Shown here: one piece after another, positions 53,810 through 62,908 of the stretch
Position numbering within the stretch: the first letter of the stretch is position 1
Layout: the number at the start of each line of letters is the position of its first letter
Origin: a virus
DNA: 64,000 bases
IMG/VR virus record: IMGVR_UViG_3300050120_000309
Span: 31,912-95,911 of that record
Direction: 5' to 3' (one strand)
Notes under the pieces: generated by a model
Told to the model about the DNA's origin: nothing
The model's database searches: none
What the model saw: only the letters and a program-made list of their open reading frames with translations
Made by a program: the position numbers and the translations under genes

Positions 53810-54180
53810 ACAGTCGTCCTGAGGTGCCTGTAGTGAAAGCCACATCTCCCTGGCCGCGGTGCGATTGGAACATCGCCAAGGACGAACCGCGGGAACCAGG
53901 CGCTACCGTTCAAATGGGCGACTGCATGAACATGGTCAGTCGCTCTTTTGGAACTCGCCGGCCATACTTCAGAGCTTGCGAGACCTGTAGTACTTTGTCC
54001 CGACGTCTCCGACGCTTCATGAAGAGTGAACGACGTGTTGAGAGCTACAGCTACCACGTCTATGACCTCGGAGTGTTGACCGAGATTCGAGAATTGCCTC
54101 GCCCGGAAGCTGCCATCATTGCTGAATGCAAGGCTGGCAACTTTGGATATAGACCTGGATATGGCTGGGAGGAACAGTGA
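53806..54180 (+). CDS. Cys-containing basic protein
   Basis: A 124-residue protein. WPRCDWN, GDCMNM and ACETCS provide spaced cysteines (zinc-like), followed by a strongly basic helix (RRLRRFMKSERR). ATGA overlap upstream. Function unknown. Confidence 0.5.
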   Translation: MNSRPEVPVVKATSPWPRCDWNIAKDEPREPGATVQMGDCMNMVSRSFGTRRPYFRACETCSTLSRRLRRFMKSERRVESYSYHVYDLGVLTEIRELPRPEAAIIAECKAGNFGYRPGYGWEEQ

Positions 54181-54623
54181 TCGATCTGCTGGCAATGCTT
54201 CTGATCTTGGGATGTCTGTCCCTTTGGACAGTCATCCTCGTGCTGCTGGCGGGTCTTTTATATGCCATGACCAATCTGTTTCCTCGTAAAGAGATTGGCT
54301 GGGAAGAAATCGGGGAGAAATTCACTCGCTTCTCTCTTCTCAAAACTCCATGGCTCAATATATATCTCCACAAACTCGATGCTCCCAGCTGGCACCCGGA
54401 GTGCCATGATCATCCCTGGAACTTTGTGGCTTTCCTCATCTGGAATGGCTACCTGGAACGCATCGGGGATATCGACTATCGCCGGCGGCCAGGAACTTTC
54501 CTCTATCGGCCTGCGGAGTTTGCTCACAATGTGATCACGCCATACGGTACCTCTTGGTCAATCATCTTCACCACTTCCAAGAAGCGGGAGTGGGGATTCA
54601 AAGCTTGTCAACTGGAGGGATAG
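54177..54623 (+). CDS. membrane-anchored cupin-like protein
   Basis: A 148-residue protein. An N-terminal transmembrane helix (LAMLLILGCLSLWTVILVLL) precedes a single cupin domain: ECHDHPWNFVAFLIWNGY, RRRPGTFLYRPAEFAHNV and SIIFTTSKKREWGF. Histidines in HDHPW and FAH form the metal site. The family is found in phages but its substrate is unknown. GTG start overlapping the previous stop. Confidence 0.65.
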   Translation: MIDLLAMLLILGCLSLWTVILVLLAGLLYAMTNLFPRKEIGWEEIGEKFTRFSLLKTPWLNIYLHKLDAPSWHPECHDHPWNFVAFLIWNGYLERIGDIDYRRRPGTFLYRPAEFAHNVITPYGTSWSIIFTTSKKREWGFKACQLEG

Positions 54624-55019
54624 TTGGACGACTTCGTATACATCGAAGAGATCTCTGGAACGACAGGTGGGTTAGACAAAGCAGCCAACCTATTCAAGGA
54701 CATGAACGATGCGCTGAGTACGACACTGCTGCCTCTCTTGTTCAACGGCAACATCGACGAGCTCCAAGCTTTCGATGCCGACTGCAACAATTGCAAGTAC
54801 CTCCAGCGTGTTCCCTTCGATCGCATCAAGCACCCTCCTGGAATTTGGGGTATGCCCGGCATCTGTGGTCAGTTCAATCGTCCGGTTTCAGCTTTTGGGC
54901 CTGGCTTGTTCTCAGGTCATCCCTGTTTTGTCCATCGTAAGACTGGCAGACTATCTGCTCATGTCGATAAGCCACCTTTTCACCGACGCTTCTACGACGG
55001 CCAGGAGAACCAACTGTGA
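54624..55019 (+). CDS. four-cysteine unknown protein, TTG start
   Basis: A 131-residue protein. CNNCKYLQRVPFD, GICGQFN and GHPCFVHRKTG form a four-Cys site, possibly iron-sulfur or zinc. GGAGGG precedes the TTG, which directly follows a TAG stop. No family name known to me. Confidence 0.55.
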   Translation: MDDFVYIEEISGTTGGLDKAANLFKDMNDALSTTLLPLLFNGNIDELQAFDADCNNCKYLQRVPFDRIKHPPGIWGMPGICGQFNRPVSAFGPGLFSGHPCFVHRKTGRLSAHVDKPPFHRRFYDGQENQL

Positions 55020-55456
55020 GCACCATTACATTCGATCGAAATACCCGCGTGGTAAATCGTCGTGTTGAACTCGAGACCAAGTACATCGGCCGTGGATCTG
55101 ACTGGGGCAACCCGTTCACCAGCATCAAGGGTAGGGATACCAAGGCCGAGTTCGTCGTAGGCACGCGCGATCAGTCGGTCTCTGCCTACAGGGAATATCT
55201 CCTTCGATCTCCTGTCCTGCTTCATCGGTTACTTGAACTGAATGGTCATAAACTGGGCTGCTTTTGCAAGCCCCAGTCCTGCCATGGAGACATTTTACGA
55301 TGGGCTCTGCGCGGCATGATCAAGATGTATCAGGTGCGCGCTGTGCCTGATGGCTTCTTCGATTGGAAAGATCAGACCAATGTAGAGGACCTGGTGTCCT
55401 TTGCAGATTCGGAGGAGCGACGTGGTTTACACATCGGCACCGACTGCGGGCTATAA
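55016..55456 (+). CDS. DUF4326-family protein
   Basis: A 146-residue protein. YIGRGSDWGNPF at the start of the domain and GHKLGCFCKPQSCHGDIL near residue 76 are the DUF4326 signatures (conserved Trp/Gly and C-x-C/C-H-G-D). The function of the family is not settled. The start overlaps the previous stop; its neighbours include NAD-related enzymes 2-5 kb away. Confidence 0.8.
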   Translation: MSTITFDRNTRVVNRRVELETKYIGRGSDWGNPFTSIKGRDTKAEFVVGTRDQSVSAYREYLLRSPVLLHRLLELNGHKLGCFCKPQSCHGDILRWALRGMIKMYQVRAVPDGFFDWKDQTNVEDLVSFADSEERRGLHIGTDCGL

Positions 55457-56948: not shown

Positions 56949-57051
56949 GACTCGATGTGGTTGCGGGAACATAATGTTCTTCACCAAACCTTTGACAGAT
57001 TGGACTGCCACGTTTTGTGGGAGATGTGAATCCACAGTATGGGTACGCTAA
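56872..57051 (+). CDS. zinc-ribbon protein
   Basis: A 59-residue protein starting MESTTELTAP, then CGCGNIMFF and CGRCESTVW forming a CxC/CxxC zinc ribbon. AGGAG precedes the ATG. It overlaps the preceding gene by 77 bases and the following one by 13. Confidence 0.6.
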   Translation: MESTTELTAPIGVLKPPPAPQTNPYETRCGCGNIMFFTKPLTDWTATFCGRCESTVWVR

Positions 57052-57698
57052 TCGGCACCTGGTTTCTCTATGCAGCAACCATCATCATGGCGGTTCTTCC
57101 GCCGGCAACCCTGGAGGGAATTCCTGAGCAATTGGGACGGAATTCCTTCTTCTATAGATATACCGCGACTGATCCATCCTTCATGCCCTCTACGTTGATC
57201 TTCGGACCATGGGAGCCAATGGGGTACGCACAGTTCGGCGCGCTGCAGAGGCCAGCGAGGGTACGAATCGGTATTGTGTGTCCTGGCAAGGTCATGGAAT
57301 GCCTGCCGGATGTGGTTTACTTCGAGGCCGAAGTCTACACCTATGAGCCCGAGTATTTGTATCACACCACGAACCTGAATCTTGATTCTGGCGACAGGGT
57401 AGTAGAACCCTTTGGCGGAACACACTCCGTGACCGATCGTGTGTTTTGGACGAAGAACTTGCCCAAGAATTGGATGCCCGGCAGCAACACCGCTCCTCAG
57501 CTTCCCATTCTCAAGTACACCTCTGGGGGTGAGTTTGTCACTGCTGATTTCAGCAGAATGCTGACGAATCCAGACACCTCTATACATCTTGGGGAATGGA
57601 CCATTCGCACACCTACCAGTCTCAGTACGGATCTTCACGATCTCATCTATTACGCACCATCAGCCCCCAAGGTAACCCATAGGCATGGCAGAAAATGA
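57039..57698 (+). CDS. unknown beta-rich protein with hydrophobic start
   Basis: A 219-residue protein. MGTLIGTWFLYAATIIMAVL is a signal-like or anchor helix; the rest is beta-rich with many Pro/Tyr. It overlaps both neighbours, consistent with one operon. Function unknown. Confidence 0.5.
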   Translation: MGTLIGTWFLYAATIIMAVLPPATLEGIPEQLGRNSFFYRYTATDPSFMPSTLIFGPWEPMGYAQFGALQRPARVRIGIVCPGKVMECLPDVVYFEAEVYTYEPEYLYHTTNLNLDSGDRVVEPFGGTHSVTDRVFWTKNLPKNWMPGSNTAPQLPILKYTSGGEFVTADFSRMLTNPDTSIHLGEWTIRTPTSLSTDLHDLIYYAPSAPKVTHRHGRK

Positions 57699-58095
57699 CG
57701 TCTTCGTCTTCGGTTCAAATCGCGCAGGGAAACACGGCAAAGGTGCCGCAGCTGACGCACGTGACTTTTATGGCGCTATCCGATGGCGAGGTGAAGGGAT
57801 TCAAGGTCCAGGTCTATTTGGAACCAGTTATGGAATCCCCACCAAGGACCGATGGCTCCAGATCCTGGAACTAGATCAGATCAATCGCCATGTTGATCGG
57901 TTCCTTCTCTATGCAGTGATGCATGCAGAAGATAACAACCTGATCACTCGGATTGGATGTGGTCTATCCCTCTACACCAATGAACAGATCGCCCCGATGT
58001 TCCGCGGCGCTCCTGACAACTGTAGCTTCGATCCCGAATGGCTTCCGTGGGGTCTCAAGACGTGGATCAAACCACCACATAAAGGAACACAGTGA
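57685..58095 (+). CDS. macro-like domain protein
   Basis: A 136-residue protein. VFVFGSNRAGKHGKGAAADA, then GLFGTSYGIPTKD, then TRIGCGLSLYT, the three conserved loops of a small macro-like (A1S_2505-type) family in phages. Macro-type folds bind ADP-ribose or related nucleotides. Its stop overlaps the GTG of the Prs-like gene, so it belongs to the NAD cluster. Ligand binding is inferred. Confidence 0.65.
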   Translation: MAENDVFVFGSNRAGKHGKGAAADARDFYGAIRWRGEGIQGPGLFGTSYGIPTKDRWLQILELDQINRHVDRFLLYAVMHAEDNNLITRIGCGLSLYTNEQIAPMFRGAPDNCSFDPEWLPWGLKTWIKPPHKGTQ

Positions 58096-58952
58096 TCAAG
58101 CTCCTCAGTATGACTAATACAGAAGGTCATTTGACCTTCCCTGCAGGTAAAGAGATCAAGTTCAACAGCTTTGTATTCTCCGGAGGGGAGATCCAGGTCC
58201 AGGTTGGACCGAAAGATTGTCCCCATTGCTCGCTACCGCGCGTCGTAAAGATCGTCGCTGATGTGTTCTCAGCTATCGACTTCATGACCTTGATTCATAC
58301 GGTGGATGCACTTCGGCGCCGTGGTACCGAAGAGATTCACCTGGTCTGCAAATACCTTCCGTATGCGCGCCAGGATCGTGTAATGGAAAACGGTGAATCC
58401 CTTGGAATCAAGGTTGCTACCGATCTCATCAACTCCCTTAACTTCAAATCTGTCGAAGTCTGGGATGTTCACAGCGATACCTCGCTGGCCCTGATAAACA
58501 ACGTCCATCACGTGGACCAGGGGTCCTTTGCCCGCTTTGCTTGGCCGGCATTTGAGCCAGGTGTGGTCCTCGTTGCGCCCGACGGCGGCGCCTTGAAGAA
58601 GGTGTTCAAGACAGCTAAAGGTTATGACCGCGACATGGTCGTTGCCGAGAAGCATCGGGACACCAAGACAGGTGAGATCACCGGAACAACTGTTCACTCC
58701 GAGCATATCGGAGACCGGAACTTCCTGATCCTCGATGACATATGCGACGGCGGTCGTACATTCACTGAGTTGGCCAAGGTCCTTCGTCCCCTGACGAATG
58801 GCAAGGTCTATCTCTATGTGACCCACGCCATCATGTCGAAAGGTCTCGATGTGTTCAAAGGTCTGATCGACCACATCTACACGGCTAATCCGTTCCCGGG
58901 TGTGGATCTCACAAACCCCATCATCAGCAAGATTCAGATGCCTACGGGCTAG
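58092..58952 (+). CDS. ribose-phosphate pyrophosphokinase-like enzyme
   Basis: A 286-residue protein. YLPYARQDRVM is the Prs flexible-loop signature and FLILDDICDGGRTF (D215-D216) the PRPP loop; EVWDVHSD corresponds to the catalytic region. Normal Prs makes PRPP from ribose-5-phosphate and ATP. In phage NAD+ reconstitution pathway 1 the homologous enzyme instead pyrophosphorylates ADP-ribose. Which substrate is used here cannot be told by eye. The GTG start overlaps the macro-like stop (AAAGGAACACA upstream), and the NAMPT-like gene follows after 7 bases. Confidence 0.85.
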   Translation: MIKLLSMTNTEGHLTFPAGKEIKFNSFVFSGGEIQVQVGPKDCPHCSLPRVVKIVADVFSAIDFMTLIHTVDALRRRGTEEIHLVCKYLPYARQDRVMENGESLGIKVATDLINSLNFKSVEVWDVHSDTSLALINNVHHVDQGSFARFAWPAFEPGVVLVAPDGGALKKVFKTAKGYDRDMVVAEKHRDTKTGEITGTTVHSEHIGDRNFLILDDICDGGRTFTELAKVLRPLTNGKVYLYVTHAIMSKGLDVFKGLIDHIYTANPFPGVDLTNPIISKIQMPTG

Positions 58953-58959
58953 GAGCTTC

Positions 58960-60654
58960 ATGTTCAAGATCTTCGCACCGCACGCGGCCGACTTCTATAA
59001 GACCGGCCACCCCTTCATGTTCCCCGAGCAGCTTGAAGAGCTCTATGGCAACTTCACGCCCCGCGGCGACAAGCTGGCCAAGGTTCTACCGGACTTCGAT
59101 CACAAGATCACCTGGGTGGGCTTTCAGCCTGTTCTCCAGTATCTGTTGATCGATCTCTGGAACGATACCTTCTTCAACGTCCCGAAGGAGAAGGCAATCG
59201 CCAAGTACAAGCGCCGGATGGATCTCGCGCTCGGTGAAGGGGAAATCCCAACCTGGAAACTGGCGGATCTGCACGATCTCGGCTATTTGCCGCTGACCAT
59301 CAAGGCCCTGCCCGAGGGTGTTCGCGTCGACATTCGTGTCCCGCCCTACACCGTCAAGAGCAATCAGCCCAAGCATGCCTGGATCGAGCAGTATATCGAG
59401 ACCCAGATGTCTGCTGAGGTCTGGAAACCTCTCACCACGGCGACCAGCGCCTTTGAGTTCCGGCGGCTCTTCACTCGCTATGCGATTGAGACCGGGATCG
59501 ACCTGGGCTTCGTGGACTGGCAAGGTCATGACTTCTCCATGCGGGGAATGTCTGGCCTGATCGACGCCACGACATCTGGTGCAGCTCACCTGATGCTCTT
59601 CAACGGAAGCGACACGATCTCTGCGATCGACTTCCTTGAGGACTACTATCCCGACACACAGCCAATCATTGCAGGGTCTGTTCCTGCAACTGAGCACGCT
59701 GTCTCCTCCAGCAACATCATCATGATCGCTGCTTCTCTTGAGAAGTATGGTCAGTGGAATGGCTGGACCACGGAGAGTCTGAACCCTCGCCTCAGCGATC
59801 CGTATTTATATCAGATCGCACCAGAGAATCGCCAGGCCTACTTCGATGCATGTCCGATCATCGAGATGGCGGAAGTCGCCTTCCTCAAGCACATGCTGGT
59901 CAACGTCAAGCCCAAAGGGATCTTCTCCTATGTGGCAGATACGTATGACTTCTGGGCTGTGGTTACGCGCATCGCCAATCACCTCAAGAAGGAGATCATG
60001 GCCCGTGAGGGTAAAGTGGTCTTCCGTCCTGATTCGGGCGATCCGGTCAAGATACTGGTTGGAGACGTAGAGTCAAGACTGATTGCCAGTCCAGAGTATG
60101 AAGGTGCAGTCCAGGTTCTCTGGAGCATCTTTGGCGGCAAGGTCAACTCGGCCGACTATGCAGAGCTTGACAGCCACGTGGGTCTCATCTACGGGGACTC
60201 GATCTCGCTCGAGCGCGCCGGCAGTATTCTTGAGGGTCTCAAGCTGAAGGGTTTCGCATCCAGCAATGCTGTCTTCGGCATTGGATCGTTCACCTATCAG
60301 TTCGTCACGCGCGATACCTTCGGAACCGCTATCAAAGCTACTCATGCCGTCATCGCCGGCCAAGAACATGACCTGTTCAAGGATCCGAAGACCGATAACG
60401 GTATGAAGAAGTCCGCTCGCGGATTCATTCGTATTGAGAACGAAGACGGGCACTACGTGATGTATGACCGACAGACCCGGGAGCAGGAAGCCCAGGGTGA
60501 ACTGAAGGTTGTGTTCGAGAACAGCAAGATGGTCAAGATGCATACGGCCAATGAGGTTCGAGCACGCATTCGTAACGCAGTTCTGGATATATGTGAGATC
60601 GATAAGGCACCCATATGGCAAAGAGTAAGCGCAAGAGTAGCAGCAGCAAAGTAA
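58960..60654 (+). CDS. nicotinamide phosphoribosyltransferase-like enzyme
   Basis: A 564-residue protein. HDFSMRGM (about 190-197), GSVPATEHAV (catalytic-type H246), SYVADTYDFW, RPDSGDP (about 356-362), IYGDSISLE and FGIGSFTYQ match NAMPT. NAMPT joins nicotinamide to PRPP to give NMN; the phage homologue in NAD+ reconstitution pathway 1 joins nicotinamide to pyrophosphorylated ADP-ribose to give NAD+ directly. AGGAG precedes the ATG at 58960. Its place right after the Prs-like gene supports one pathway. Substrate choice is inferred. Confidence 0.9.
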   Translation: MFKIFAPHAADFYKTGHPFMFPEQLEELYGNFTPRGDKLAKVLPDFDHKITWVGFQPVLQYLLIDLWNDTFFNVPKEKAIAKYKRRMDLALGEGEIPTWKLADLHDLGYLPLTIKALPEGVRVDIRVPPYTVKSNQPKHAWIEQYIETQMSAEVWKPLTTATSAFEFRRLFTRYAIETGIDLGFVDWQGHDFSMRGMSGLIDATTSGAAHLMLFNGSDTISAIDFLEDYYPDTQPIIAGSVPATEHAVSSSNIIMIAASLEKYGQWNGWTTESLNPRLSDPYLYQIAPENRQAYFDACPIIEMAEVAFLKHMLVNVKPKGIFSYVADTYDFWAVVTRIANHLKKEIMAREGKVVFRPDSGDPVKILVGDVESRLIASPEYEGAVQVLWSIFGGKVNSADYAELDSHVGLIYGDSISLERAGSILEGLKLKGFASSNAVFGIGSFTYQFVTRDTFGTAIKATHAVIAGQEHDLFKDPKTDNGMKKSARGFIRIENEDGHYVMYDRQTREQEAQGELKVVFENSKMVKMHTANEVRARIRNAVLDICEIDKAPIWQRVSARVAAAK

Positions 60655-60920
60655 TCACGATGGCTGTCCGGCAACCTGTCGGGCAGCCCGTGAACCACGC
60701 CAAGACCATCTGGGAATCGCAGAATGTCCCAGAGGACAAGGCAGCTGAGTGGTTCGAAGGTGAAGCTGAACGCTGGGCCTCCTGGTCTGGTTACAGCTTG
60801 GAGTCAACTCGCGGGGTGTTATCTCGCTGGTTGTCTTTCATGGCCCTGATGAATGGCCAGGATACCAAACGAATCGCAGTGCTCTTCGGTCAACACGCAC
60901 CAGTACCAATGGCAGCCTAA
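60615..60920 (+). CDS. unknown small basic protein
   Basis: A 101-residue protein (MAKSKRKSSSSKVITMAVRQ) with a Trp-rich helical middle (AAEWFEGEAERWASWSGYSL). It overlaps the NAMPT gene by 40 bases. Function unknown. Confidence 0.5.
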   Translation: MAKSKRKSSSSKVITMAVRQPVGQPVNHAKTIWESQNVPEDKAAEWFEGEAERWASWSGYSLESTRGVLSRWLSFMALMNGQDTKRIAVLFGQHAPVPMAA

Positions 60921-61756: not shown

Positions 61757-62908
61757 ATGCCGAAGCAATACACCCGTGTCGAATTAGTTCTTGCTTCACT
61801 AAATCGCAAGACCGGCGATATCATTTATACGTTCAAGCAGACGTTTCCCCGGTTGATCCTTGCTGAACTGAACACGCACACTATCGCTTCGAAGAGCGCC
61901 GCCTCGAGCCGCGCTATCCCGACATTGAAACAGCTCTGGAACATTCTCCGTGATCCGTTCCTTCCGATCTCCATTGGTTCCTACCAGGCGGGCATGCAGG
62001 CCGGCGATGAGATCCAGGGCTGGAGACGCACCACCTGTGAGCAATTGTGGCTCCTTGCCCGGTATCCTGCTCTCCTTGCGGCATGGCTCAGCTTTAAGCT
62101 GGGCGCGCCCAAGCAGTTCTCCAATCGCCTCGTGGAACCGTGGATGTGGGTAGAACAGCTCTGGACGTCTACTGACGTTGAGAATGAACTTCTGCTTCGC
62201 AACAGCTATATGGCTGAACCTCATTACGAGCTCTTGGCCCAGCAGAAGCAAATCCTGATCAATCGGATCAAAGCACACTTCGCAGGAACAATTGACCCGC
62301 CACTTGCAAGAAAGCTACAGGTTCTTGAGCATGGCGATTGGCACATGCCATTCCTCAACAGCGGGGACTTCTATCTGGATCTTGAGACCTTGATCCGGAA
62401 GAACATCATTGGTTTTACCGAGAACGGCATCCGTGTTCTCGATCGTAAGACCGCCGAATTCACGATGATTCCCAATCTTCATCTGCCCTTGGATATCGCC
62501 AAAGCAGTCTCAGCTGCACGTTGTGCTTGGATCAGCTATTACATGCCCGGGGACGACAGTCAGCGCATGGGTAATACTGCAGCCGCTCTCCTGACCTATG
62601 CCAAGCTGTCTGCCGGCACTATCCGGCATCTCAGCCCGCTTCAGCATGTCGCTACGCCTCTGCCCTTCAGTGTCAGAGTTGGCTCTCATGTGGGTTGGAT
62701 GATGTTCCGCAAGCAGATTCCGAACGAAGCGGGCGGCGACAAGGTCGTCCCTTCGATCACTCCACAGATGGCCTTCCGCTTGTTACAGGATGTCGAAGAG
62801 GGATCGGATTCCATCACTCAACTCCATAACTTACAGCTCGGTTTCCTGGACGAGATCAAGGAACAACAGTCGATCTTCCGATCGCAGAACGGAGCATATA
62901 TTGCCTAG
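61757..62908 (+). CDS. ThyX-like protein with altered signature
   Basis: A 383-residue protein. FPRLILAELNTHTIASKSAASSRAIP (about 30-55) aligns with the flavin-dependent thymidylate synthase region of long phage ThyX proteins, where R-H-R/N-T-H-R precedes S-R-N-A-S-S-R-A-I-P. Here the residue after the His (H41) is Thr instead of Arg, and Asn is replaced by Ser, so catalysis may be lost or changed. Later H-S-P-x-x-H and RVGSHVGWMMFRKQIP fit the C-terminal ThyX region. Normal ThyX makes dTMP for DNA synthesis. The role here is uncertain. Confidence 0.6.
   Translation: MPKQYTRVELVLASLNRKTGDIIYTFKQTFPRLILAELNTHTIASKSAASSRAIPTLKQLWNILRDPFLPISIGSYQAGMQAGDEIQGWRRTTCEQLWLLARYPALLAAWLSFKLGAPKQFSNRLVEPWMWVEQLWTSTDVENELLLRNSYMAEPHYELLAQQKQILINRIKAHFAGTIDPPLARKLQVLEHGDWHMPFLNSGDFYLDLETLIRKNIIGFTENGIRVLDRKTAEFTMIPNLHLPLDIAKAVSAARCAWISYYMPGDDSQRMGNTAAALLTYAKLSAGTIRHLSPLQHVATPLPFSVRVGSHVGWMMFRKQIPNEAGGDKVVPSITPQMAFRLLQDVEEGSDSITQLHNLQLGFLDEIKEQQSIFRSQNGAYIA

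Follow-up and report, generated by a model that had tools for sequence, protein, structure and literature searches.

Relatives of the enzymes considered here, the ADP-ribose pyrophosphate synthetase Adps and the nicotinamide ADP-ribose transferase Namat, have been shown to rebuild NAD+ from ADP-ribose and nicotinamide (PMC13232231). This pair is known as NAD+ reconstitution pathway 1 (NARP1). RyDEP, a third gene beside NARP1, frees ADP-ribose for the pathway (PMC13232231), and for phage Adele the combination of NARP1 with a macrodomain gene has already been published (PMC12846349). The structure of Namat was solved by Lan et al., and a helix signature acting as selectivity clamp, GSXPhiXPhiXPhiTRD, marks Namat and is absent from Nampt (PMC12774641). 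Here, we describe a virus locus in which genes for both enzymes directly follow a gene of the A1S_2505 family. On balance, we lean slightly towards a reading in which it is a phage counter-defence operon made up of NARP1 and an accessory macrodomain gene.

The window, which is the whole 64,000-base stretch of DNA that was analysed, corresponds to bases 31912-95911 of a 95,911-base IMG/VR virus record. Portal and terminase genes are present in this record, which is diverged: among 50,697 phage records, no near DNA relative of the region was found, and the best covered about 6% at 64-70% identity. The features discussed below are the following.

55016-55456, + strand: DUF4326 protein (PF14216, E 1e-18), 2.2 kb upstream of the macro-like gene
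57039-57698, + strand: gene of 219 residues with no Pfam or PHROG match, overlapping the macro-like gene by 14 bases
57685-58095, + strand: predicted macrodomain-like protein of the A1S_2505 family, 136 residues (NF049995, phrog_2072), proposed hydrolase of an ADP-ribose derivative
58092-58952, + strand: predicted Adps (Prs-like), 286 residues, GTG start, loop DDICDGGRTF (phrog_619, E 9e-77)
58960-60654, + strand: predicted Namat (Nampt-like), 564 residues, GSFTYQFVTRD at residues 442-452 (phrog_448, E 1e-170)

A three-gene locus at 57685-60654 had been proposed in a sequence-only reading of this DNA; its coordinates proved right, and the homology of all three products (phrog_2072, phrog_619 and phrog_448) is far beyond chance. 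The same reading regarded the genes as coupled by overlap or a 7-base gap. The spacing is indeed of this kind, with a 4-base overlap (GTGA) between the macro-like and Adps genes, 7 bases between Adps and Namat, and plausible ribosome-binding sites before the GTG at 58092 (AGGAA, Adps) and the ATG at 58960 (GGAG, Namat). It does not mark out a separate three-gene operon, because genes on both sides of the trio overlap it too, including a downstream gene (60615-60920) that shares 40 bases with Namat; tight packing is a property of the whole block. The 219-residue gene possibly belongs to the same transcription unit as the macro-like gene. Matches to a promoter or terminator specific to the three genes were at chance level, with no excess. 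We also considered the DUF4326 gene as a fourth member, given a published proposal that DUF4326 processes phosphate groups on products of ADP-ribose breakdown (PMC9503650). This candidate was rejected because no enrichment was observed near NARP1, where DUF4326 genes were found in 5 of 87 loci with no consistent distance, and the protein is probably outside the operon. Elsewhere in the packed block, PHROG matches were observed to cysteine dioxygenase (54177-54623, phrog_4786) and thymidylate synthase (61757-62908, phrog_85).

Judging from the residues of both enzymes, the Prs-like and Nampt-like genes very probably represent NARP1, as had been suggested before, rather than ordinary Prs and Nampt. 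The helix signature is present in the window Namat as GSFTYQFVTRD, whereas control phage Nampts have GGGLLQEVTRD, GGGLLQQLDRD and GGALLQSLNRD at this site. The best PDB matches of the protein were the SpbetaL1 Namat chains 9w5x and 9w5w (410 bits), compared with 150-160 bits for human and bacterial Nampt. The sequence-only reading had also proposed a comparison of active-site residues with characterised enzymes. When this was carried out, 17 of the 20 NAD+-contacting residues were identical to those of SpbetaL1 Namat, and the three changes (R40K, A362S and Y396F) are conservative; the SpbetaL1 clamp residues R40, F392, Y396, T398 and D400 correspond to K38, F444, F448, T450 and D452. Key residues had been described as intact by eye, which holds for RPDSG (356-360) and H246 but not for a PRPP loop of the Prs type, in place of which the Adps version, DDICDGGRTF, is found. 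Two further features of the window Namat are an insert of about 50 residues just after the catalytic His (residues ~253-305), 25-50 residues longer than in other phage Namats, and a C-terminal tail absent from the other six proteins aligned. Namat/Nampt relatives were detected in 1,939 phage records and Prs/Adps relatives in 1,472; viral contigs were searched for Namat relatives with an alignment, after a search with the single window sequence had returned no matches.

With regard to Adps, the Prs-like protein scored 109 bits against the curated model of true Prs, ribose-phosphate diphosphokinase (TIGR01251), below its cut-off of 113 bits. Its DDICDGGRTF loop is located where Prs of the E. coli type reads DDMIDTGGTL, and solved Prs structures have DDMIDTGGT, DDMVDTAGT or DDIISTGGT at this place. 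In Prs, the loop at the DTGGT position binds the 5-phosphate of ribose-5-phosphate. Loss of the loop threonine would suit the bulkier ADP-ribose. Among 126 Adps reading frames at NARP1 loci, 115 had a DD(I/L)(C/I)(D/S)GG loop, none had DTGG and 11 had neither form. We infer from these alignments that the DD(I/L)CDGG loop may serve as an Adps marker; this is our own criterion and not a published one. It would offer a simple candidate sequence marker, DDICDGG versus DTGGT, to show which substrate Adps chooses, a matter that has been called obscure (PMC12774641). Across the Adps reading frames of loci L008-L252, the form DD(I/L)CDGG(R/G/A)TF separates Adps from Prs and is usable for bulk annotation of NARP1.

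The product of the first gene was assigned to the A1S_2505 family (NF049995, 116 bits against a curated cut-off of 45 bits, E 8e-34; phrog_2072, E 7e-36). Its earlier description as macro-like is upheld at the level of fold, but not by a match to Pfam Macro (PF01661): the window protein had none, the model matched 2 of 60 homologues (best E 0.03), and a PDB sequence search with the macro-like protein alone gave no match. An AlphaFold model based on 60 sequences had a pLDDT of 92, and its Foldseek matches (probability 1.0) were macrodomains, including Bt_1257 (2fg1), TARG1, SCO6735 and DarG, with TM scores of only about 0.6 (0.62 for TARG1 and 0.53-0.63 for DarG). Designed hydrolases of the OSH55 series scored alike. 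In addition, hhalign related the family to phage macrodomains with an E value of 6e-6. On the strength of this modelling, we are confident that the predicted product has a macrodomain-like fold.

The occurrence of macro genes was assessed in 122 other NARP1 loci, thinned at ~90% Namat similarity (in the printed number, 124, the record of the window is counted twice). A canonical macrodomain gene was present in the flanks of 27 loci, always on the same strand. In 23 of these 27, it was within 2.5 kb of NARP1, compared with 9.9 expected if the genes were placed at random in these flanks; in six loci it was located between Adps and Namat. Macro-bearing loci occurred on several branches of a Namat tree, although not every case is independent and about 10 group in a single clade. 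Thus, a macro gene beside NARP1 is a recurrent arrangement. The A1S_2505 type is mostly found away from NARP1: it was detected in the flanks of two of the 122 loci, at 845 and 4,657 bases and contiguous in neither, and the only contiguous A1S_2505-Adps-Namat case in the survey was the window itself. No second, canonical macro gene was found in the record. Two other loci had unusual organizations. In L241 (9994-11989), overlapping Adps and canonical macro genes are situated just upstream of a Namat that is split into two reading frames ~250 bases apart, with the break at the GS..TRD signature; this may reflect a frameshift, or else an intron or an insertion that interrupts the active-site motif. 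In L127 (7868-10354), a true Nampt-type gene, not accompanied by Adps, is followed ~600 bases downstream by an A1S_2505 gene.

Among the alternatives, the one that survives best accepts the pair as NARP1 and takes the macro-like gene to be unrelated to it, encoding a general early protein of phages and lying upstream by coincidence in a dense block. A1S_2505 was present in 320 phage records, many of the best-scoring being N4-like genomes (72-78 kb), and in one such phage, Meara, the gene is found among small early genes beside RNA polymerase genes; Adps was detected in none of 80 viral A1S_2505 loci with flanks of up to 10 kb, and in the window the gene shares its tight packing with genes on both sides. 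What this explanation leaves to coincidence is that a protein with a macrodomain-like fold is encoded immediately before enzymes that would act on ADP-ribose, in a neighbourhood repeatedly occupied by other macro families, and we consider it rather unlikely. Whether the macro gene is a functional third member appears evenly balanced. Its description as an extension of the known pair remains plausible, given the recurrence of macro genes beside NARP1 and the RyDEP precedent, but a macro gene with NARP1 had already been described for Adele, and A1S_2505 genes mostly occur apart from NARP1.

Conserved residues bear on what such a member might do. The FGSN motif (including N12), H17, G20, A22, Y49, T53-K54, G91, F106 and N112 were invariant in all 60 homologues. 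A weak profile alignment to TARG1 (E 0.13) placed K54 on the catalytic Lys84 and A/S95 on Asp125 (TARG1 residue numbers were counted from the printed alignment). In the ligand loop, the window copy retains G91 and G93 but has Leu96 where 58 of the 60 homologues have Gly. Since this loop usually cradles the diphosphate in macrodomains, ADP-ribose binding by the window protein may be altered or lost. It could be argued that the protein acts as a sponge, holding an immune signal based on ADP-ribose and not cleaving it, with NAD+ repaired by Adps and Namat. The RyDEP family has sponge-type members beside cleaving ones (PMC13232231), and both the missing TARG1 aspartate and the changed loop glycine are compatible with such a role. 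The putative equivalent of the catalytic lysine is nevertheless invariant, and DarG, in which the lysine is all that is retained of the TARG1 dyad and which is inactive as a K80A mutant, works without the TARG1-type Asp (PMC5179494, PMC9411070); a sponge therefore seems improbable.

Ordinary salvage, in which Prs would make PRPP from ribose-5-phosphate, Nampt would convert it to NMN and the host would adenylylate this to NAD+ (a NARP2-like or host-assisted route), is very improbable, for although both proteins fall in the Prs and Nampt superfamilies, SpbetaL1 Namat accepts PRPP in vitro (PMC12774641) and one Acinetobacter chromosomal segment has the same Namat and Adps motifs in an operon with NadM, the window pair has the Namat clamp and the Adps loop, its Prs-like protein scores under the Prs model cut-off, and no gene of the NMN adenylyltransferase type (CTP_transf_like/NMNAT) was found in the 95.9-kb record, which may be incomplete, with all controls positive. 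The last result fits a two-step pathway, and the NadM in the Acinetobacter operon means that the motifs of Namat and Adps do not exclude PRPP use. Entry CAKLQF020000015.1 (L170), filed as Acinetobacter phage MD-2021a, resembles a bacterial chromosome, and on it an Adps-like gene, a gene with the Namat motif and NadM follow one another.

For the favoured reading, a NARP1 operon with an accessory macrodomain, we propose the following mechanism. Cleavage of NAD+ by a host NADase defence would leave nicotinamide and ADP-ribose. Adps would transfer pyrophosphate from ATP onto ADP-ribose to yield ADPR-PP, and Namat would combine this product with nicotinamide, so that NAD+ would be regained in two steps and NMN adenylyltransferase would not be needed. 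The macro-like protein, whose gene lies just before Adps and is probably on the same message, would hydrolyse a conjugate or derivative of ADP-ribose that is no substrate for Adps, thereby freeing ADP-ribose and removing a lesion or signal. Candidate substrates are ADP-ribosylated nucleic acid or protein and 1''-modified ADP-ribose; one of these could be ADP-ribose-1''-phosphate, the product of RES-type NAD+-phosphorolysing toxins (PMC9503650). Such a hydrolase role has, in our estimate, a little less than an even chance, yet it appears likelier than the earlier suggestion that the protein binds or channels ADP-ribose. A bolder proposal is that A1S_2505 is a new phage ADP-ribosyl hydrolase family with DarG-like lysine chemistry, here wired to NARP1, such that ADP-ribose removed from DNA, from protein or from a modified nucleotide would go directly back into NAD+; this we regard as speculative and on the unlikely side. 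If true, canonical macrodomains and RyDEP would be joined by a third, convergent route through which phages seem to link the release of ADP-ribose to the restoration of NAD+. There would then also be a functional hypothesis for A1S_2505, a family that hundreds of phage records contain and whose name says no more than that it is a non-structural protein.

Compared with known systems, the two enzymes most resemble NARP1 of phage SpbetaL1 and its relatives, in which they are also adjacent on one strand, and the window Namat shares the signature, clamp and catalytic residues; the window differs in its extra upstream macro-like gene and in the Namat insert and tail. The macro-like protein has its best fold matches of known function in the ALC1-like macrodomains DarG, TARG1 and SCO6735, from which it differs in being shorter and very divergent (14-16% identity in fold alignments). 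Its K54 is a candidate counterpart, by the weak profile alignment, of the catalytic lysine of TARG1 and DarG, and it lacks Asp125 of TARG1. RyDEP-NARP1 of mycobacteriophage DyoEdafos likewise has a third gene beside NARP1 (PMC13232231). By analogy, the window macro-like protein might also supply ADP-ribose, although RyDEP is a RyR-domain glycosidase acting on 2'/3'cADPR and the window gene encodes a predicted macrodomain-like protein. A search of the record for an RyR domain gave no match, but the control of this search was unable to give a signal. In the Pakpunavirus phages Adele and PaGz-1, a macrodomain gene occurs within a few genes of NARP1, and its product was proposed to free ADP-ribose (PMC12846349). 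There, the gene lies downstream of Namat and encodes a canonical macrodomain (phrog_335) that BLASTP does not relate significantly to the macro-like protein of the window, whose gene is directly upstream of Adps. A macro gene with NARP1 is thus not new in principle; what is new is a contiguous gene of the A1S_2505 type upstream of Adps.
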